This document shows positions 15,739 to 29,869 of a stretch of 56,410 nt of DNA, piece by piece. The translations under genes were made by a program, and so were the position numbers. How positions within the stretch are numbered: the stretch's first letter is position 1; every line of letters starts with the position of its first letter. This DNA comes from an uncultured Planctomycetota bacterium (GTDB lineage Bacteria; Planctomycetota; Phycisphaerae; SM23-33), in contig CAITIS010000078.1 of assembly GCA_903892515.1 (NCBI GenBank), positions 1 through 56,410 on the forward strand. The letters are read 5' to 3'. The notes under the pieces were generated by a model, which was not told the DNA's origin, did not search any database, and saw nothing but the letters and a program-made list of their open reading frames with translations.

Positions 15739-16319
15739 ACCGCTTTTCTCCCGAGATCAAAGGCCCGTACGTTCACATCGAGGTGTTTGGGCGCGACGGA
15801 TGTCCGGATCGCCTCTTGCCAAGCTTCCGCCGGCAGGTCCAGGCCATTGGACATGGCGCCGAGGATGACGAGATTGGCCGTGCGCGTGTTGCCGGCAGCG
15901 GCCGCCAGCTTGTCCGCATGCACGTACGCCAAGCGTGGGAATAGCGCTGCAAGTCGCTGCGGCACGTCCTCGGGGTAGCTGGCCTGGCCGCTGGAGACCG
16001 TCACCGGGACGATCGCCTGGCTGGAGACGACCGCCAAGCCGTCGGGGGCCAGGAATTGCGCGAAGCGGATCGCTTCGATCTGTTCCAGCGCCCCCAGCAC
16101 CGCGGCTGTGCCTTCGGGCACCAGTGGGCTGTGAACCTTCGTGCCGTAGCGAATCTGCGCGATGACTGATCCGCCGCGCTGGGCCATGCCGTGTACTTCG
16201 TTGGTCTTGACGTCAAAGCCGGCATGCATGGCCGCCCTGGCGACGACCTCGCTGGCCAGCAGGATGCCCTGGCCTCCCACGCCCGCCAGCACGACGCTTA
16301 CGGTGTTCTCGGCGATCAT
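15735..16319 (-). CDS. iorB: Indolepyruvate:ferredoxin oxidoreductase, beta (gamma-domain) subunit
   Basis: The product is 194 residues from the ATG at 16319, which overlaps the iorA stop (ATGA); a longer open frame would intrude into iorA. It carries the family opening VVLAGVGGQGILLASEVVARAA and the loop HGMAQRGGSVIAQIR typical of the 2-oxoacid:ferredoxin oxidoreductase gamma domain. With IorA it oxidatively decarboxylates aryl pyruvates (from Trp, Phe or Tyr transamination), passing electrons to ferredoxin. Its own stop overlaps the paaK start. Confidence 0.93.
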   Translation of the reverse strand: MIAENTVSVVLAGVGGQGILLASEVVARAAMHAGFDVKTNEVHGMAQRGGSVIAQIRYGTKVHSPLVPEGTAAVLGALEQIEAIRFAQFLAPDGLAVVSSQAIVPVTVSSGQASYPEDVPQRLAALFPRLAYVHADKLAAAAGNTRTANLVILGAMSNGLDLPAEAWQEAIRTSVAPKHLDVNVRAFDLGRKAV

Positions 16320-18073
16320 AGACCTTCCTCGACGGCGGCAACGGCGCCGAACTTGCAGACCTGTTCGCACATGCCGCAGCCGGCACACAGGACTTCGTTA
16401 ATGACGGGGGCGGCGCCTTTAGCTCCTTCGGCCGCTGGGCAGCCCAACTTGAGGCACAAGCCGCACTTCTTACACACTTCCGAGTTGATCTTGCGCTGCG
16501 GGCCGGGGCGCTTCTTCTCGCGCAGCACGCACGGGGCCGATGAGACGATCAGGGACGGCTCGCTGGCGTTCAGCTCTTCCGTTATCGCCTGCTGCGTGGC
16601 GTGGAGGTCGTAGGGGTTGACCGTCCGCACGCGTTTGACGCCGCAGGCCCGGGCCAGTTCTTCAATCGACGCCGCCACGGTGGTTTCGCCCATGAGCGTT
16701 CTGCCGGTGCCGGGGTGGTCCTGATGGCCGGTCATGGCCGTGGTGCGGTTATCCACCACGATGATGGTGCTGACGCCGCGGTTGTACACGATGTTCAGCA
16801 GGCCCGTCAGCCCGGAGTGGAAGAAGGTCGAATCGCCGACGATGCCGACGATCTTTCGCTTCTCCCCGGCCTTGTCCATGCCGTGGGCCAGCGTGATGCC
16901 GCCGCCCATGCACAGGATCGTGTCGATGCGCGACAGGGGCTTGAAAACGCCCAGGCTATAGCAGCCGATGTCGCCGGTGACGATGACGTCGTGTTGGGCC
17001 AAGGCGTAAAAAACGCTGCGGTGCGGGCAGCCCGGGCACAGCACCGGCGGCCTGGCTGGCAAGTCGGCGGCCTGGGCCGGCGGGGCGGGGATGGAGAAGC
17101 TCTTGCCTTCCATCGCGGCCTTGGCCTGAGCCAGCCGTCCTGGGGAAAGCTCGCCGATGCCCGGCACGAACTGCCGGCCCTTGCAGGCGATGCCCAGCGA
17201 ACGGATGTGCTCTTCCAGGATGTCGTCGAGTTCCTCGACCACCAGCACCTGCTCCACGCCGGCGGCGAATTCGCGAATGAGGGCGTCGGGGAAGGGGAAG
17301 GACAGCCCCAGTTTCAGCACGCTGGCGTCGGGAAAGATTTCGCGGACGTATTGGTAGGAGATGCTGCCGGTGATGATGCCCAGTTTGCGGTCGGACCATT
17401 CGACGTGGTTAGCGGCACAATTCTCCGCCAGTTCTCGCAGCTTGCCCAGGCGATCTTCGAGCTTGGTCCGCATCACCCGGCCCCAGAGCGGGATGGGCAC
17501 GAAGCGGGGCGGATCCTTCTCGAACTTGATGGCTCTCCCGGTTTCCTGCCGTTCGCCCAGCGTTACCAGGCTTCGGCTGTGGCTGACGCGGGTGGTGGTG
17601 CGCAGGATCACGGGCGTGGTGAACCGTTCGCTGATTTCAAAGGCCAGGGTGGTGAAGTCCTTGGCCTCCTGCGAATCGGAGGGCTCGAAGATCGGCACCT
17701 TGGCGAAGCGGGCGAAGTGCCGGGTGTCCTGCTCGTTCTGCGAGGAGTGCATGCCCGGGTCGTCGCCCACGCAGATGACCAACCCACCGACCGTGCCGAT
17801 GTACGCCAGCGTCATGAGCGGATCGGCGGCCACGTTCAGGCCCACGTGCTTCATGGTCACCAGGCAGCGGGCGCCGGCCAGGCAGGCCCCGGCGGCGACT
17901 TCCAGGGCGACCTTTTCGTTGGGGGCCCATTCGCAATACACTTTGTCGCGGTGGGCCACGAGGGCCTCGAGGATTTCCGTCGAGGGCGTGCCAGGGTAGC
18001 CGCTGGCCACGGTCACGCCGGCTTCAAAGGCGCCGCGGGCGATGGCTTCATTTCCGGAAAGTAGCTCGATCAA
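16316..18073 (-). CDS. iorA: Indolepyruvate:ferredoxin oxidoreductase, alpha subunit
   Basis: The product is 585 residues from the TTG at 18073, chosen because GGAG lies five bases upstream and because the protein then begins MIELLSGNEAIARGAFEAG, the usual IorA start. The TPP-binding region is present (GDIGCYSLG near residue 375 and GDSTFFHSGLTGLLN near 425). The C-terminus holds two ferredoxin clusters: CKKCGLCLKLGC and CAGCGMCEQVC. The enzyme makes aryl-acetyl-CoA, CO2 and reduced ferredoxin from aryl pyruvate and CoA and is oxygen-sensitive in known members, hinting at anaerobic amino acid use. It heads the coupled iorA-iorB-paaK operon. Confidence 0.95.
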   Translation of the reverse strand: MIELLSGNEAIARGAFEAGVTVASGYPGTPSTEILEALVAHRDKVYCEWAPNEKVALEVAAGACLAGARCLVTMKHVGLNVAADPLMTLAYIGTVGGLVICVGDDPGMHSSQNEQDTRHFARFAKVPIFEPSDSQEAKDFTTLAFEISERFTTPVILRTTTRVSHSRSLVTLGERQETGRAIKFEKDPPRFVPIPLWGRVMRTKLEDRLGKLRELAENCAANHVEWSDRKLGIITGSISYQYVREIFPDASVLKLGLSFPFPDALIREFAAGVEQVLVVEELDDILEEHIRSLGIACKGRQFVPGIGELSPGRLAQAKAAMEGKSFSIPAPPAQAADLPARPPVLCPGCPHRSVFYALAQHDVIVTGDIGCYSLGVFKPLSRIDTILCMGGGITLAHGMDKAGEKRKIVGIVGDSTFFHSGLTGLLNIVYNRGVSTIIVVDNRTTAMTGHQDHPGTGRTLMGETTVAASIEELARACGVKRVRTVNPYDLHATQQAITEELNASEPSLIVSSAPCVLREKKRPGPQRKINSEVCKKCGLCLKLGCPAAEGAKGAAPVINEVLCAGCGMCEQVCKFGAVAAVEEGL

Positions 18074-18135
18074 GGCAACTCCGTTCCCGGCGTGGGAGTA
18101 GCGTCCGCGTAAGCGGGCCAACCAGCCGAACCCTA

Positions 18136-20854: not shown

Positions 20855-23302
20855 TTACTTCACGCTGTACAGTGACTCGCGGTCGATGTTGCCTTCGAGC
20901 TTGCGGAGGATGTCCGACAGCTCGACGCCTTCGCGGGCGGCCACAAGGCGGCCCAAGGCCAGCGACGTCGACAGGATGGCATTCATGCCCAGGTTGGCCT
21001 TGCGCTGCGCCACGGCGATCTTCTGATCGGCCGTCGCGCTGGCCGGAATCTTGCCGCGCTCGGTGGCCAGCTTGACTTCCAACGCCAGCAGTTGCTTGTC
21101 GATCTCGACCAGGCCGGCGATCTCGCTGATGGCCTTGCCGACGAACAGCGGGGCAATGTACTTCTCGACGTTCTCCGAAGCGTTCAAGCAGCCCTTGCCG
21201 TTGTACCGCTGCGCCCTCCGCCACAGTTCCGACAGGGCCGCGTCGTTCTTGGCGGCGATGCCGGCCGTGTCCAGGCCCTTCTTGAACTTGAAGGTCTTGC
21301 CGCCGTCCTTGCTGTCGAACAGGTCGGCAAACTTGTCGGTCGAGGGGCTCTTTTCGATGATGCTGTCGATGAGGTGAATGGCCTCATCAGTGCCAGCCGA
21401 CGTGCCCAGCGGGGTCGCGCCCTGGTAGGTCACGCCGTTTTCCAGCCGGACGGTCACGCCCACGGTCGGGATGCCGGCGTTGGTGGCCACTTCGGTCGCC
21501 ATCATGTCGGCGATCTTCATGTCCGAGGGGATGGGCTTGGTGATCTTGAAGCCCTTCTGAGCCATTCGCATCAGTTCGACGATGCGGGCGTACTTGATCA
21601 GACGCTCGGTGTTGGCGCCGCCGCCGCACTTCATGCCCATGGCGTCCACGGCAAAGGCGATGTCCGCCTCCATGGTGTCGTTGGGGCTCTTGGAACGGTG
21701 AGAGATAACCAGTTGGTTGCCACGGCTCTTGGCCGCGTGCGTGGCCAGCAGGGTCTCTGACAAGCACCCGATCTGGTTGGCCTTGATGAGGGCCGTGTTC
21801 ATCAGGCCGTTCTCAATGCAGCGGATGATGGTGGAGTCCTTGGTCGTGACCAGGTCGTCACCGATGATGAAGACCTTGTCGCCCATTTCCTTCATGAGCA
21901 TCTGCCAGCCGCTCGGATCGTCCTCGGCGAAGCCGTCTTCGATGCTGACGATTGGATACCTGACGACCCAGCGTTTGTACATCTCCACGAGTTCTTCCGA
22001 AGACATCGTCTTGGGCTCTTCGCCCCGCCAGAAGAAGTACTGGCCGATGGCGTCGGACTTGTTGGCGTGCTCGCGGTAGGCAATGGACAGTTCAGAGCAG
22101 GCCGGGTCCAGGGCGATGGCGACGTCCTTGCCTGGCACGAAACCGCAGTCCTTGATGGCCTGCACAGCCACTTTCAGGGCGCGTTCTTCGGGGCACTCAT
22201 CGTCGGCCTGCTTGGAGTAGGCGCCGACCATGCCGCCTTCCAGGCCGATGCCGACGAAGTTCATGCCTTCGGAGTCCTGCACGATCTGGATCACGCGCGT
22301 CTGCAGCGCGTTGGTCATGCGCTGGGCTTCAACGTAGTCGGTAGAGGACAGGGGCAGGAACATGAATTCCTGGAAGGACAGGTTGCCGCCCTGTTCTTCG
22401 GTGTGCCGGCCGCCCATCAAGCAGTTGCGGTACTGCCAGGGAGCGCGGACGCTCTTGCCGTCGGGCAACTTGATTTCCTGCATGCGCTTGTTGATCATCA
22501 TCTGCTTGACCGAGGCCGGATCCCACTTGAACGAGGCCCGCACGGCGGCCAGTTCGGCTTCCTGCGCCTTGGCGGCAGCGCCGGACATACGAGCGCGATA
22601 CGCCTTGACCGCGCCGTGGTCAGCCAGCAGGCGGTCCAACAGGGCCACCACGCCGATGGTGAAGAACAACCGGCCGAACCACATGATCGGCAAACCGGCG
22701 GCGTTGCCGTGCTCGCCTTTCTGGGCCAACATGAAGCCAAGGGCCAGAATGATGATGCCCGGAACCAGCGTGAACATCGACAGCTTGCCGCTCATGAGCG
22801 GGCCGGCGGCCGAGACGCCCAGGTTCTGGGTCTTGACGTCGGGGAAGTAGTTGCCGGCTTCCTTCTTGATGCCGCGGAACTTGCCCCAGGGAATCAAGAG
22901 AACCATCTTGAAATAGCCGGCCGGGTTGAGGTTCTTCTCGCCTTCAGCCAGCAGTTCTGGACGCAGGTTGCTGGTCTTGACGGCGGCGATATAGTGGCCC
23001 ATCTCGTGGACGCCGATGTTGATGTGCCAGCTCAGGTACAGGATGAGGGCCGAGAACCACAGTTCGATGCTCAGGGGGCTGAACATGAACTTCAGCACTT
23101 CGCCGGTGTCCCAGTTCACGCCCTTGGTGAGCATGAACAGCGAGCTTAGGAACGCGGCGTGGAAGGACACCAGTTTGTGGTTGGCGATAACCCAACCCTC
23201 TTCCAGGTTCCCCTGCCGCAGGTTGTGGCTGGGCGTAAAGCCAAGGCTTGTGCCCAGGCGACTAAGGCTCTGGCGAATTCTCGCAGCCCATGTACCGATC
23301 AT
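20855..23302 (-). CDS. M50-like membrane metalloprotease domain fused to a circularly permuted enolase
   Basis: The product is 815 residues from the ATG at 23302, which has AGGAAAGGAAGAGAAG just upstream (an in-frame ATG at 23386 would add 28 residues). Residues about 46-223 form a membrane domain of about four helices with HEMGH at 99-103, the zinc motif of site-2-type M50 peptidases, and SAAGPLMSG resembling the family's AGPLAN turn. The NxxPxxxLDG motif is absent; Asp223 (ALLDRL) might supply the third ligand. Residues about 287-582 are the enolase barrel: His300, Glu312 (QEFM), Glu355 (GLEGG), Asp399, Glu455 (SIEDGF), Asp482, Lys507 (KANQIG), His535-Arg536-Ser537 and Lys558 align with yeast His159, Glu168, Glu211, Asp246, Glu295, Asp320, Lys345, His373-Ser375 and Lys396. 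Residues about 600-807 are the enolase capping domain, normally N-terminal: GIPTVGVTV, PLGTSAG with Ser635 (yeast Ser39), YNGKG and KANLGMNAIL. A roughly 55-residue insert separates the Ser635 loop from YNGKG. I infer a membrane-tethered, possibly active 2-phosphoglycerate dehydratase. The role of the protease-like part is unknown. Confidence 0.9.
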   Translation of the reverse strand: MIGTWAARIRQSLSRLGTSLGFTPSHNLRQGNLEEGWVIANHKLVSFHAAFLSSLFMLTKGVNWDTGEVLKFMFSPLSIELWFSALILYLSWHINIGVHEMGHYIAAVKTSNLRPELLAEGEKNLNPAGYFKMVLLIPWGKFRGIKKEAGNYFPDVKTQNLGVSAAGPLMSGKLSMFTLVPGIIILALGFMLAQKGEHGNAAGLPIMWFGRLFFTIGVVALLDRLLADHGAVKAYRARMSGAAAKAQEAELAAVRASFKWDPASVKQMMINKRMQEIKLPDGKSVRAPWQYRNCLMGGRHTEEQGGNLSFQEFMFLPLSSTDYVEAQRMTNALQTRVIQIVQDSEGMNFVGIGLEGGMVGAYSKQADDECPEERALKVAVQAIKDCGFVPGKDVAIALDPACSELSIAYREHANKSDAIGQYFFWRGEEPKTMSSEELVEMYKRWVVRYPIVSIEDGFAEDDPSGWQMLMKEMGDKVFIIGDDLVTTKDSTIIRCIENGLMNTALIKANQIGCLSETLLATHAAKSRGNQLVISHRSKSPNDTMEADIAFAVDAMGMKCGGGANTERLIKYARIVELMRMAQKGFKITKPIPSDMKIADMMATEVATNAGIPTVGVTVRLENGVTYQGATPLGTSAGTDEAIHLIDSIIEKSPSTDKFADLFDSKDGGKTFKFKKGLDTAGIAAKNDAALSELWRRAQRYNGKGCLNASENVEKYIAPLFVGKAISEIAGLVEIDKQLLALEVKLATERGKIPASATADQKIAVAQRKANLGMNAILSTSLALGRLVAAREGVELSDILRKLEGNIDRESLYSVK

Positions 23303-23570
23303 TGCTTCTCTTCCTTTCCTCATCTTGGAAACGGCCCGTGTCCGCGACACATCGCGGCGGACCTTGTCAAAATACTGGAGCTTCATCCTGGAGCTTCCAC
23401 TTCGCTGGGCCCAGACGCCTTATGAGCGTTTGGGTAGCCTCTGCCCGCCTTGGGGCAGGTAAAGAGCGAATCACTATGCCAAGAAGTGGGGGAGAATGCA
23501 ACTGTCGGGGTCGGAGATTTTTCGCACCGGTGGTCGTGCCCCGGCCGGAGCCTCGCCAAACGGCCTTAGT

Positions 23571-23687: not shown

Positions 23688-26600
23688 TTAGCTGTCACCT
23701 TGGGCGAAGCGCAGATCCGTCTGCACGCTGGCCTGGACCTTCGTGCCGCGCGGGCCGGAGTGAATGGTAAAGACGCCGCCGGCGGTCTCGGCTCGTTCGC
23801 GCATCTTGGGCAGCCCCAAGCCTTTGCCGACCGCGGTGGCGGTGTCGAAGCCCTTGCCGTTGTCCGAAATCGTCAGAATCGCTCGTCCGGGTTCGTAATC
23901 CACGGTGATGGCGATGCGGGTTGCCTGGCTATGGCGAATGGCGTTATTCAACGCCTCCTGGGCGATGCGAAAGAGAGCGATCTCTGCCATCCGGTCAAAA
24001 CGGGCTGCAGGGCCGTCCACACGCCAGCGCACCTGCACTCCGACGTGGGTGAAGTCGCGCGACAGTTGCAGCAAGGCCGAGTGCAGCCCCAGCGACTCCA
24101 GCGTGGGCGGATACAACCCTTGGCAGATGGAGCGGACCTCGGTGATGAGATGCTCCACCAAGATGGACGCCCGCTTCTGGGCCGGCGCCATGACCTCACC
24201 CGAGCCGCTGGTCGCCAATTCGTGGACGGCCAGTTGCAAGGCGATCAACCCCTGGCCCACGGAATCGTGCAGTTCGCCCGCCAAGGTCCGACGTTCTTCC
24301 TCCCTGGCCGTCGCCAGCTTGGCCTGGGCTTCTTCCAAGGCCTTTTGTTGCCGCCGTCGTTCCGTCACGTCGCGGTCGATGCCGACGACAAAAAGCCTGT
24401 CGCCGTCGCGGAACGGCACGCCCGTCCACTCCAAGTAGTTCTCTTTCTTGTCGGGTCGCAGCCAGGAGCTAAAGCCGGTCTGAAGCTCGCCCCTGAGCAG
24501 TTGATTCCGTCGTTCGGCGGATGTGCCGGGCCACAACGAGCTACGTGTGTAGAAGCCGGAAAGATTCTCCGCCTGCATCAACTCCTCACGCGAACGTCCG
24601 GTCATCTCGACATATCGATCGTTGCAGAAGACCAGCCGGGAATGCAGCGTCTTGGGATTCAGTTCCACCACGTTGATGCCATCGGCGGAGTTCTGTAGAA
24701 TCAGCCGCAGCAGCCGTTCATTCTCGGCCGCGACCGCTTCCATCTTGCGCCGGGCGGTGATGTCGCGATTGATGCCCACGACGTAGAACCGCTTGCCGAC
24801 CCGGAAGGAAGCGCTCGTCCACTCGTGATAGTTCTCCTGGCCGTCGGGGCGCAGCCATGAAAAGATCCCGCTTTGGCTCTGGCCGCTCAAGAGCTGCCGC
24901 CTCTGCTCGGCCGGACTGACGGCGGTGCCCTCCCTGGGTATGGAGAACCTCGACAGGCGGCTCGCCCGCATCAATTCCTCGCGCGACCGGCCGGAACTCT
25001 CGACGTACCGGTTGTTACACAGCACCAGCTTACGCCGGAGCGTCTTGAAATCGACCTCCACGACGTTGATGCCGTCCATCGAATGCTGCAGCACCAGTTG
25101 CAGCAGATGCTCATGCTCCCGCATGGCCTCTTCGGCCTGGCGGCGGGCGGTCACGTCTCGGTCGATGCCGACGACGAAGAGCTTCTTGCCGACGTAGAAA
25201 GGCACGCCCGTCCACTCGAAGTAATTCTCCTTGCCATCCGGACGACGCCAGCTCGCCAGACCGCTGCGTGGTTCGCGGGCCAGGAAGCCACGCCGCCGCT
25301 GGGCGGGCGTCCGCGCCGGAGGCGTGATCGCGATATGCCACTCGTCAATGTTCGGGTTCGCCATCAACTCCTGCCGCGACCGACCGGACATCTCCACGTA
25401 GCGGTCGTTGCACAGCACCAACCGGCGGCGGAGAGGCTTCAACTCCACCTCGGTGATGTTGATTCCGTCGCTCGTGTGCTGCAGCAGCAATTGCAGCAAC
25501 TGCTCACGCTCGGCCAGTGCGTTCTGGGCCTGCTTGCGCGCCGTGATGTCTCGCGCCAAGCCCTGCACGCCCACGAGCTTGCCATTCCGTCGCAACGGCG
25601 AAGTCATGGCCTCTAAGCTGATCCGCTTGCCCTGGCTGGTGATGACGTCGTATTCAAAGGGCTGCGCCAGACGCCGGCCGGCGCGGCGGCGTCCCAGACG
25701 CTCGCGCAGCAGATGGACGTGTTCTGGCACCACCACAGCGGCCATGTTCATCTTCAGCAATTGTTCGAGCGGGTAGCCCATCAACCGCTCGGCTCCGCGG
25801 TTGCCGAAGGTGAAGTTGCCCTGCAGGTCTGTCTGAAAGATCACGTCGGATGTATTGTCAATCAAGTGCTCCAAGTCCGCTTTGGAGCGGCGCAAGTCCT
25901 CCCGCGCCTGCCGATCCTGCGTGATGTCCCGCAGCAACCCCAGCACCGCCCGCACCGAGCCGTCGTCCGCAAAGATGGGAGAATAGGTCGCGTCCTGCCA
26001 GAACTGGCCATTAGGGTGCCGGACAGGCCACTCCATGCGGCAAGGCCGTTTGGTGCGGAAGACACGCTCGACCGCGCGAAGACGCATACGGGCGTATCCG
26101 GGGCTAAGCACGTCTTTCAGGAATCTTCCAGTGCACTGCTTGCTCGTGATGCCGTACTTTTGCTCCAGGTCCGGGGCGATATGAATGAACTCGATGAGGC
26201 CGTCACGACGATACACGGAAACCAGCATTCCCACTGTGGAAGAGACGATGGCTCGAAACAGGCTCTCGCTCTGCCCCAACGCCTCCTGTGCCCGCTTGCG
26301 AGCGGAAATGTCCCGCACGATCGACAGCACTAAATCGGGATGCTGGCCGATCAGCCGGGCGCTGATCTCCACGGGGCGAGTCTTGCCGGATGAATGCAGA
26401 AAGCGGTGCTCCGAGACACCCTGGCCACGCTGGCGGACGTCGTGCATTGCCTTCTTGGCAGCGGCCAAATCTTCTTTGGTGCCAGGCGTCAAGGCGGGTG
26501 CGCTGAGGCCCAGAAGCTCTTCTCGCTTCCGCCCAAGCAATTCGCACGCCCGTCGGTTCACATCCAGAATCGTCCCCTCGGCCGTCCTGACGAAGATGGC

Positions 26601-26753
26601 ATCGTTGAACAAGTCCAGAAGCCCCTCTAAACGCTGGACCTGCGCCGCCAGTGGGAATTTGGAGCGTGGCCGGGACGACTGCTTGGCGGTCTTGGACCGC
26701 CTCGGCGAGCCGCTGCCAGGCCTTCGCTTAGATGAAAGAACAGACTTGCTCAT
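23688..26753 (-). CDS. Six-PAS sensor histidine kinase with a triplicated PAS unit
   Basis: The product is 1021 residues from the ATG at 26753, which has GGAG upstream. After a basic low-complexity start come three ordinary PAS domains (about 40-155, 165-285, 292-408), then three near-identical PAS units (about 417-541, 549-671, 679-801). In these the motif LLQLxLQxxxDGIN...LCNxRYVExxGRSREELM recurs exactly every 131 residues. The catalytic part is HisKA_3 with His829 in ELHDSVGQ, then a HATPase domain with EALNNAIRHS and DNGKGF. No membrane segment is visible, so it is probably a cytosolic sensor. No response regulator is adjacent. Neighbouring genes give no clue to the signal. Confidence 0.9.
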   Translation of the reverse strand: MSKSVLSSKRRPGSGSPRRSKTAKQSSRPRSKFPLAAQVQRLEGLLDLFNDAIFVRTAEGTILDVNRRACELLGRKREELLGLSAPALTPGTKEDLAAAKKAMHDVRQRGQGVSEHRFLHSSGKTRPVEISARLIGQHPDLVLSIVRDISARKRAQEALGQSESLFRAIVSSTVGMLVSVYRRDGLIEFIHIAPDLEQKYGITSKQCTGRFLKDVLSPGYARMRLRAVERVFRTKRPCRMEWPVRHPNGQFWQDATYSPIFADDGSVRAVLGLLRDITQDRQAREDLRRSKADLEHLIDNTSDVIFQTDLQGNFTFGNRGAERLMGYPLEQLLKMNMAAVVVPEHVHLLRERLGRRRAGRRLAQPFEYDVITSQGKRISLEAMTSPLRRNGKLVGVQGLARDITARKQAQNALAEREQLLQLLLQHTSDGINITEVELKPLRRRLVLCNDRYVEMSGRSRQELMANPNIDEWHIAITPPARTPAQRRRGFLAREPRSGLASWRRPDGKENYFEWTGVPFYVGKKLFVVGIDRDVTARRQAEEAMREHEHLLQLVLQHSMDGINVVEVDFKTLRRKLVLCNNRYVESSGRSREELMRASRLSRFSIPREGTAVSPAEQRRQLLSGQSQSGIFSWLRPDGQENYHEWTSASFRVGKRFYVVGINRDITARRKMEAVAAENERLLRLILQNSADGINVVELNPKTLHSRLVFCNDRYVEMTGRSREELMQAENLSGFYTRSSLWPGTSAERRNQLLRGELQTGFSSWLRPDKKENYLEWTGVPFRDGDRLFVVGIDRDVTERRRQQKALEEAQAKLATAREEERRTLAGELHDSVGQGLIALQLAVHELATSGSGEVMAPAQKRASILVEHLITEVRSICQGLYPPTLESLGLHSALLQLSRDFTHVGVQVRWRVDGPAARFDRMAEIALFRIAQEALNNAIRHSQATRIAITVDYEPGRAILTISDNGKGFDTATAVGKGLGLPKMRERAETAGGVFTIHSGPRGTKVQASVQTDLRFAQGDS

Positions 26754-26943
26754 GCCCCTGCTCCTCTGTGGGAACGCCGGACCGGCGTGCGGCAAGGCAG
26801 TATTCTACGGCCAGCCGGCGTTTTCGTCACAGCTATTCCAGCGCCGACCTTGGGTTAGGGGTATCCGCCTGACTGGCCAAGGCCGAATGAATCTGCGGGC
26901 CGACAGTTTCTCATCTCCAGCCAAGCGGTTAGAATGTCCGTGA

Positions 26944-28085: not shown

Positions 28086-29039
28086 TCAGCGGAGGCTGAA
28101 GGTCTCATCCGCCGGCGTCAAGGCAAGCGGGTCGGGCAAGCTTTGCCGTAGCGACTGCACCGGCGCGAAGATGTCTCCCAGCGTGCTGACGCGCTCGACG
28201 GCCTGGGCGGGCGAGAAGATCGCCGCTTCGGCCGGCTCTCCGGCGGCGATGGCTGATACTTCGTCCCACGTCAGCGGCATCGAGATGCGCGGCGGATCGA
28301 CCGCACGCAGCGAATACGCGCAGATGGTGGTCTTGAAGTCTTCGTTTTGGCCCCAGTCGATGAACACCTTGCCCGCGCGCAGGGACTTCCGCATGTTCGT
28401 CACGATCAGCGGATCGCGTTGCTCCAATAGCCCGGCAATGGCGTGGGCGAACTCCTTGGTCTGATCAAACGTGGCAGGCGCGTTCAACGGCACATACAGG
28501 TGCAGCCCCTTGCCGCCGGAAGTCTTGATCATGCTCTGTAAGCCGATTGACTCCAACAAGGCCCGCGCCGCCAGTGCCACCTGCGCGCATTCCCGCAGCC
28601 CGGCCGGCGCGCCCGGGTCGAGGTCGAAGACCATGCTTGTCGGGCGCGACAGATCCTCCGACCGCGACAGCAGGACATGCATTTCCAGCGCCGCCAGGTT
28701 GGCTACCCACAGCAGGGCCGCCCGCGAATTGGCCACACAGAAGTTCACGTTCGTCCCGCGCCGCGCCCGGTGCTGCTGCGGCACGCAAACGGTATCGATC
28801 CACTCGGGGTGGGGCGGGCATTGCTTTTCGTAGAAGAACTCCTCCCCGGCGCCATCGGGATAGCGTTTGAGCGTCAGTGGCCTGGCCTGTAGATGCGGCA
28901 GCATGGCCGGGCTGATGCGGTCGTAGTAGTCAATCACCTGGCCCTTGGTGAAGCCGCTGCGGGCGAACAGCACCTTGTCCAGGTTGGACAGCTTGAGTTC
29001 CCGGCCATCGATATCCACGACCACGCTGGGCGTCTTCAC
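28086..29039 (-). CDS. ligD (polymerase domain): LigD-type NHEJ polymerase (PolDom, AEP superfamily)
   Basis: The product is 317 residues. It is a stand-alone version of the LigD polymerase domain, which adds ribonucleotides at broken DNA ends. The catalytic pair Asp139 and Asp141 (VFDLDPG), the SGGKGLH loop and Asp228 in VFIDWGQN are present. The GTG start at 29039 overlaps the Ku stop as GTGA, so the two are coupled. There is no ligase or phosphoesterase domain in the chain; the ligase is a separate gene in the same operon. Confidence 0.93.
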   Translation of the reverse strand: MKTPSVVVDIDGRELKLSNLDKVLFARSGFTKGQVIDYYDRISPAMLPHLQARPLTLKRYPDGAGEEFFYEKQCPPHPEWIDTVCVPQQHRARRGTNVNFCVANSRAALLWVANLAALEMHVLLSRSEDLSRPTSMVFDLDPGAPAGLRECAQVALAARALLESIGLQSMIKTSGGKGLHLYVPLNAPATFDQTKEFAHAIAGLLEQRDPLIVTNMRKSLRAGKVFIDWGQNEDFKTTICAYSLRAVDPPRISMPLTWDEVSAIAAGEPAEAAIFSPAQAVERVSTLGDIFAPVQSLRQSLPDPLALTPADETFSLR

Positions 29040-29869
29040 GCCGTCCTCCTTCGCTTATGCGGGTGCTGGGAGGGCGGAGGCTGCTGCTGCCGCTCCTTGC
29101 GGGCCTTGGCCAGGCTCTGCTCCAGTGCAGCCATAAGGTTGATGACGCGGGGCGGCTTGCCGACAGGCGGCGGTGCGGTGACCTTCAGGCCGTGGGCCTT
29201 CTTTTCGATCAGTTGCTCCAGCCGCTGCTGGTGCTCGCTGTGATATTGCCGCGGGTCAAACTCCTGCTCCAATGCCCCGATAAGCTGCTGGGCCATCGCT
29301 AACTCTTTCTCGCCGGCGTTCACCTCTTCGGGCAGGCCTGAAAGTTTCTGAGGCAGGATGACTTCGTCGGCGAAACGCATCGTGTGCAGGCAGATCGCGC
29401 CCTCGACGACGCGCAAGGCCGCCAGGTACTCGTGATTGCGCAGAACCAAGTGAGCGATGCCAACCTTGTTTTCCCGCGCCATCGCTTCAGCCAGCAGGCG
29501 GTAGGACTTGGTAGCGCCCTGCTCAGGCAGCAGGTAGTACGGATGCTCGAAGTACAGCGCGTCGAGATGGTCGGCATTCACGAAGGCGACGATGTCGATC
29601 ACGCGGCTTGACTCGGGCGCCGCGGCCTCAATTTCCTGCTCCGACAGCACGACGTACTGGTCGGGCGAGACCTCGTAGCCCTTGACGATGTCCTGGCGAT
29701 CGACTTCCTTGTCCTCGGCCGCACATACCGTGCGATACTGGATGCGGGACATGTCGCTCTTGTGGAGCTGATGAAAATGGATGTCTTTGTCTCGCGTGGC
29801 GGGCACGAGCTTGACGGGGATATTGACCAGCCCGAAGCTGATCGATCCGCTCCAGATTGACCTGGGCAT
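29036..29869 (-). CDS. ku: Ku homodimer protein for non-homologous end joining
   Basis: The product is 277 residues, normal for bacterial Ku. It begins MPRSIWSGSISFGLVNIPVKL, the family signature, and contains the bridge region with YRLLAEAM and ENKVGIAHLVLRNHEYLAALR. The C-terminus is basic and Pro/Gln-rich (ends HKRRRTA), a feature that modulates DNA threading in known Ku proteins. It encircles double-strand break ends and recruits the ligase and polymerase. It lies 15 bases after the ligase stop. Confidence 0.96.
   Translation of the reverse strand: MPRSIWSGSISFGLVNIPVKLVPATRDKDIHFHQLHKSDMSRIQYRTVCAAEDKEVDRQDIVKGYEVSPDQYVVLSEQEIEAAAPESSRVIDIVAFVNADHLDALYFEHPYYLLPEQGATKSYRLLAEAMARENKVGIAHLVLRNHEYLAALRVVEGAICLHTMRFADEVILPQKLSGLPEEVNAGEKELAMAQQLIGALEQEFDPRQYHSEHQQRLEQLIEKKAHGLKVTAPPPVGKPPRVINLMAALEQSLAKARKERQQQPPPSQHPHKRRRTA

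Follow-up and report, generated by a model that had tools for sequence, protein, structure and literature searches.

What does an enolase do behind the membrane domain of a putative protease, and why are its own two domains in reverse order? Few enzymes of central metabolism are as well conserved as enolase, and to our knowledge its domain order is identical in every described case. In the window (the whole stretch of DNA analysed here, 56,410 nucleotides of contig CAITIS010000078.1 in the assembly GCA_903892515.1 of an uncultured Planctomycetota bacterium), a single gene on the minus strand joins a membrane domain resembling M50/site-2 proteases to an enolase whose capping domain follows the barrel. 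We call this gene the fusion. Judging from sequence, we propose that it encodes an active, membrane-tethered, circularly permuted enolase behind an M50-like domain, and that it is likely the cell's only enolase. We give this reading a probability of about 0.7.

A first-pass annotation of the same DNA had described the fusion as one uninterrupted frame, which is the case (Table 1). The likely start is at 23302, because a purine-rich stretch lies just upstream and because the resulting product is close in length to many homologues. Residue numbers follow the longest frame; those of the first-pass annotation are smaller by 28.

In a Pfam scan of the fusion, Enolase_C matches residues 318-604 (E 1.6e-56) and Enolase_N matches residues 723-824 (E 8.6e-15). 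The barrel thus precedes the cap, the reverse of the canonical order. When the fusion sequence is rotated, 159 of 419 positions are identical to E. coli enolase. Together with the Pfam order this confirms that the cap comes after the barrel. Every motif listed in the first-pass annotation is also found, in the order given there. By these comparisons the enolase is a true circular permutation and not a canonical member of its family.

The permuted enzyme is predicted to be active. All 12 catalytic residues that we checked are kept, and they are invariant in 55 of 55 full-length fusion proteins. The E. coli positions compared include H159, E168, E209, D246, E290, D317, K342, H370, R371, S372 and K393, which have metal-binding and catalytic roles. 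Ser663 in the catalytic loop is likewise invariant in all 55. The cap carries insertions relative to E. coli enolase in the rotated alignment, and the NCBIfam enolase model TIGR01060 reaches 250.7 in three stretches, below its cut-off of 300.

The same architecture recurs widely. The database search with the full protein that had been suggested found 1080 homologues similar to it in length (E 0.001 or better), and we examined the best 120 of these. Both enolase Pfam domains are present in all 120 and HExGH in 118; the remaining two are short (629 and 665 residues). We also applied a strict test for seven motifs: 98 of the 120 listed homologues and 51 of the 55 full-length proteins have all of them in permuted order. 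The remaining 22 and 4, respectively, are without one or two of the motif expressions and were left out of the order test. The listed homologues are annotated at their source as 'enolase', 'phosphopyruvate hydratase' or 'hypothetical protein', and hence the fusion architecture has been hidden.

In our genome collection we found 67 fusion loci. Besides the window, 54 of them hold full-length fusions, from seven phylum-level groups. Fusions occur in Planctomycetota, Acidobacteriota (mostly Terriglobia), Elusimicrobiota, Myxococcota ('Deltaproteobacteria'), WOR-1/Saganbacteria/Margulisbacteria, Fermentibacterota, Verrucomicrobiota and unnamed bacteria. When 55 fusion and 50 canonical enolases are placed in one tree (a quick method, with long-branch warnings), each kind occupies one side of a single, fully supported and very long branch. 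A single old origin of the fusion is therefore likely, although we are unsure of the root. The fusions of the window's family group with those of Acidobacteriota, Elusimicrobiota and Myxococcota, apart from other Planctomycetota fusions, which suggests horizontal transfer. Three fusions from WOR-1/Margulisbacteria/Saganbacteria (L074, L081 and L100) measure 1131-1183 residues, with a longer N-terminus and extra C-terminal residues; a Pfam scan of the L100 protein named no domain in the extra part.

Does the fusion take the place of the ordinary enzyme? In the source genome (a 90.9% complete assembly) the fusion is the sole enolase match. Across 35 genomes of the window's GTDB family, 9 have the fusion, 20 a canonical enolase, 6 neither and none both. 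Three of the nine family fusions are contig-edge or frame-broken pieces, and the order-level search took in 38 genomes. If genomes were independent, which they are not, zero overlap would arise by chance with a probability of 7e-5. Since the two kinds never occur together in these 35 genomes, the fusion likely does the canonical enolase's job. Of 197 genomes sampled across the phylum, the window's own is alone in reaching a fusion-level score; in 184 others the match is at the canonical level (best E 5.1e-52 or weaker), and the remaining 12 have none. A candidate second enolase in one genome (G215) was rejected, as the weak match is by eye a MenC/mandelate-racemase-like superfamily member. As for pathway context, an archaeal-type phosphoglycerate mutase is present in all nine fusion genomes of the family and pyruvate kinase in six. 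In one relative, G224, some 4 kb separate the fusion from a phosphoglycerate mutase match (C43:183724-184233 and 188119-190593).

Several observations speak against our reading. We asked 50 of the 66 genomes with fusion loci for their enolases, and a canonical enolase is also present in 29 of these 50; hence the fusion is not always the sole enolase. A further 20 have the fusion only (six of them from the window's family, and G256 with an unclear extra fragment), and one shows none. All these data come from draft metagenome-assembled genomes, and a canonical enolase may be unsampled in any single one. Within the window's family, three of the nine fusion genomes show no pyruvate kinase, and iPGM_N is found in none of the nine.

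The membrane domain is harder to place. H127, E128 and H131 of its HExxH motif lie within a predicted helix (residues 107-137), as expected of an M50 membrane helix. In the motif itself the two histidines, the glutamate and the glycine are invariant in all 55 full-length proteins, as are Asp251 and Asp256 further along the chain. The first-pass annotation had called this an M50-like protease domain. The HEMGH motif and AGP-type turn that it cited are indeed present, but the window protein scores under the Pfam cut-off and the LDG motif is absent. On the window protein alone, Peptidase_M50 matches residues 122-265 weakly (E 0.13), with 12 and 13.2 bits against a cut-off of 27.2. Weak M50 matches occur in 49 of the 55 full-length members (E up to 1, best E 1.4e-6), and precomputed PF02163 matches in 17 of the 120 listed homologues. 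A Foldseek search with the membrane-domain model returned nothing at E 0.001 or better, with the site-2 protease 3b4r at rank 47, and a membrane-domain profile had no match to the sequences of solved structures. The domain is M50-like by its motifs and weak Pfam matches, and any proteolysis is putative. Three further invariant histidines (residues 70, 76 and 121; window 23024-23179, minus strand) lie outside HExxH and are not accounted for by the M50 signature.

How would such a protein work? A basic N-terminus and basic loops point to both termini being cytoplasmic, which would put the enolase at the inner face of the membrane. There it would interconvert 2-phosphoglycerate and phosphoenolpyruvate. 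The membrane domain would be a fold of the zinc-metalloprotease kind, which serves at the least as a tether and may, steered by the enolase domain, cleave a substrate as well. In M50 proteases such as SpoIVFB, a cytoplasmic CBS regulator sits at the position that the enolase would occupy. We favour replacement in the window's organism because of the catalytic residues, the exclusion pattern and the pathway context. Where a lineage retains a canonical enolase as well, the fusion probably serves as an enzyme for a special purpose or as a sensor. Outside Planctomycetota, where it would mostly be a second enolase, it perhaps works with a neighbouring dikinase-like phospho-histidine protein.

This neighbour stands out in a comparison of 68 loci (67 and the window, with flanks of unequal length). 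One family of proteins of about 890 residues adjoins the fusion in 21 loci, within 500 bp in 20 of them. The gene lies tail-to-tail downstream in 18 and upstream in three WOR-1/Margulisbacteria/Saganbacteria loci. In one member (L042:3208-5880, minus strand) the alignment with pyruvate phosphate dikinase covers residues 136-622 (best E 2.2e-22). The histidine aligned with the dikinase's phospho-histidine, presumably with the same role, is invariant in 20 of 20 aligned neighbours. The TIGR01828 model scores 111 and 128 on these proteins against a cut-off of 843, and no phosphoenolpyruvate/pyruvate barrel was recognised in their last 270 residues.

Of 46 fusion genomes, 19 have a strong dikinase-like match (E 1e-150 or better), none of them Planctomycetota, the window's family included; 22 others have matches at the ordinary dikinase level only and five have none. 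The window's genome has only a 24% match to the dikinase-like gene. Around a Terriglobia genome we compared 81 genomes of a single class. Both the fusion (at E 1e-60 or better) and the dikinase-like gene (at E 1e-40 or better) are present in the same 4, and in the remaining 77 neither passes these limits. Therefore adjacency and co-occurrence agree around this genome, although the centre genome and one other of the 4 were known carriers beforehand. The WOR-1 locus L074 has three related dikinase-like genes upstream of the fusion, all within about 8 kb.

Other readings of the fusion have to be weighed. Possibly the M50 fold of the membrane domain has degenerated into a mere anchor, or the domain is a different metal enzyme; in either case it would cleave no protein. 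We consider this possible but less likely than not. However, the conservation of HExxH and the aspartates in all 55 proteins argues for a working metal site, and 3b4r (S2P) is still the first VIA row.

Alternatively, the fusion is mainly a site-2-type protease, and its permuted enolase senses 2-phosphoglycerate or phosphoenolpyruvate to switch the intramembrane cleavage of a substrate. The same invariant residues, the weak M50 matches in most members and the adjacent dikinase-like gene are in line with such a role, and a retained canonical enolase would free the fusion for another task. In the window's family, though, the fusion occupies the canonical enzyme's place, and a mere sensor need not retain all 12 catalytic residues in all 55 proteins. 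Moreover, the only neighbour family common to the window and at least three relatives is a glycosyltransferase-like gene, with no evident protease substrate. We consider this role rather unlikely. The first-pass annotation had left the choice between a membrane-localised glycolytic enzyme and a sensor-steered protease. Its interpretation is supported in part: residues and exclusion pattern favour the predicted enzyme, and the protease stays as its rival.

A more elaborate version, which we find improbable, makes the fusion a widespread membrane switch. Here a site-2-type protease would carry a permuted enolase that reads and turns over 2-phosphoglycerate and phosphoenolpyruvate, and the phospho-histidine arm of the headless dikinase, which would have no phosphoenolpyruvate barrel of its own, would dock on the enolase barrel. 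The carbon state at the phosphoenolpyruvate node would then be passed on to regulated intramembrane cleavage, with the fusion as sole enolase in the window's lineage.

Finally, the assembly behind the window is a draft in 159 contigs, but the chimeric or frameshift join of two genes that the first-pass annotation had warned of is effectively ruled out by independent copies, namely the 118 of 120 listed homologues with HExGH and both enolase domains and the 54 further full-length loci in seven phylum-level groups.

A natural split form of the fusion may exist. A search for free-standing membrane domains gave 60 matches, and the six inspected look by eye like partial or frame-broken pieces of fusions. 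Free-standing permuted enolases were sought among 7200 matches; 14 were checked among the best 120, all colinear with the fusion and each partial. Three of the 14 (P0187, P0201 and P0242) start just behind the membrane domain. P0201 looks like a broken frame because its contig matches in size that of P0172, which is a membrane piece whose tail looks out of frame; P0187 and P0242 have tails that look unrelated at the end. Two candidate splits were rejected: L095, where the fusion stops after the barrel, and L101, with the membrane domain alone, both break at a run of 100 N, which is a scaffold gap. The word 'chromosome' in their record titles is no proof of completeness. The 6.5-Mb 'chromosome' record of L101 (genome G283), whose fusion is cut by such a run, has no Enolase_C match. 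L080, whose frame is broken, was kept unchanged. In P0135, a 3.9-kb contig, the membrane domain runs into a histidine-kinase ATPase domain instead of an enolase; this may be an assembly chimera.

In other Planctomycetota different neighbours recur, in up to 12 loci. A 180-residue protein lies beside the fusion in 12 loci of the other Planctomycetota fusion group. Farther upstream, 8 loci of this group have a 255-residue protein that is RNase III-like by eye, and 6 have a STAS-like one; the loci concerned are L089, L091, L094-L097, L099, L060, L065, L069 and L073. Genes near the fusion in the window are listed in Table 1.

Table 1. The fusion gene, its parts and nearby genes in the window.
Feature	Position	Strand	Residues	Remark
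Longest frame of the fusion	20855-23386	minus		843 codons, no stop
Likely fusion coding sequence	20855..23302	minus		815 residues and stop; putative start at Met29 of the longest frame
Possible ribosome-binding site	23308..23320	minus		purine-rich AGGAAAGGAAGAG, just 5' of the 23302 start
M50/site-2-protease-like membrane domain	22607..23212	minus	59-260	
HEMGH	22994..23008	minus	127-131	
AGP turn	22799..22807	minus	194-196	Pro196 invariant; Ala in place of Gly195 in 22 of 55
Stretch with invariant Asp251 and Asp256	22619..22636	minus		candidate third zinc ligands
Enolase TIM barrel	21551..22465	minus	308-612	ahead of the cap
Enolase N-terminal (capping) domain	20897..21520	minus	623-830	behind the barrel; Pfam Enolase_N and rotated alignment
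Catalytic loop PLGTSAG	21392..21412	minus		Ser663 is the counterpart of E. coli Ser42; rotated alignment
Histidine kinase with several PAS domains	23688-26795	minus		
Ku-domain protein	29036-29869	minus		suggests end-joining repair
POR_N, TPP_enzyme_C, Fer4 protein	16316-18121	minus		presumably indolepyruvate ferredoxin oxidoreductase alpha-like

If our reading is true, a core glycolytic step can move to the membrane, by way of a natural permutant that occurs in many phyla and replaces the soluble enzyme in one family. The fusion would also offer a testable link between metabolism and intramembrane proteolysis. The first-pass annotation knew of no enolase with this order or partner. Our literature search, with most subscription papers and bioRxiv outside its reach, likewise found no description of a permuted or M50-fused enolase. 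As far as the searched literature shows, neither the architecture nor the permutation nor the gene pair seems to have been described; the single parts are members of known families or resemble them.

Four known systems come close. Moonlighting enolases share with the fusion an enolase at the membrane or surface, but they are ordinary enolases without a transmembrane domain; the accessible part of PMC5014317 speaks of surface enolase only. The neighbouring gene is homologous to pyruvate phosphate dikinase through the phospho-histidine part, and differs in that no phosphoenolpyruvate/pyruvate barrel was recognised. With the M50/site-2 proteases (PF02163; M. jannaschii S2P, 3b4r) the fusion shares HExxH in a predicted membrane helix, an AGP-type turn and a later invariant aspartate; it differs in its low scores, the missing LDG motif and the extra invariant histidines. 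In proteases of this kind, such as SpoIVFB and RseP, the additional domains are CBS or PDZ, whereas the fusion has an enolase. With canonical enolase (EC 4.2.1.11; Enolase_N and Enolase_C; TIGR01060) it shares the sequence of barrel and cap and every catalytic residue checked, but its cap stands behind the barrel and carries insertions, a membrane domain stands in front, and it forms a separate group in the tree.
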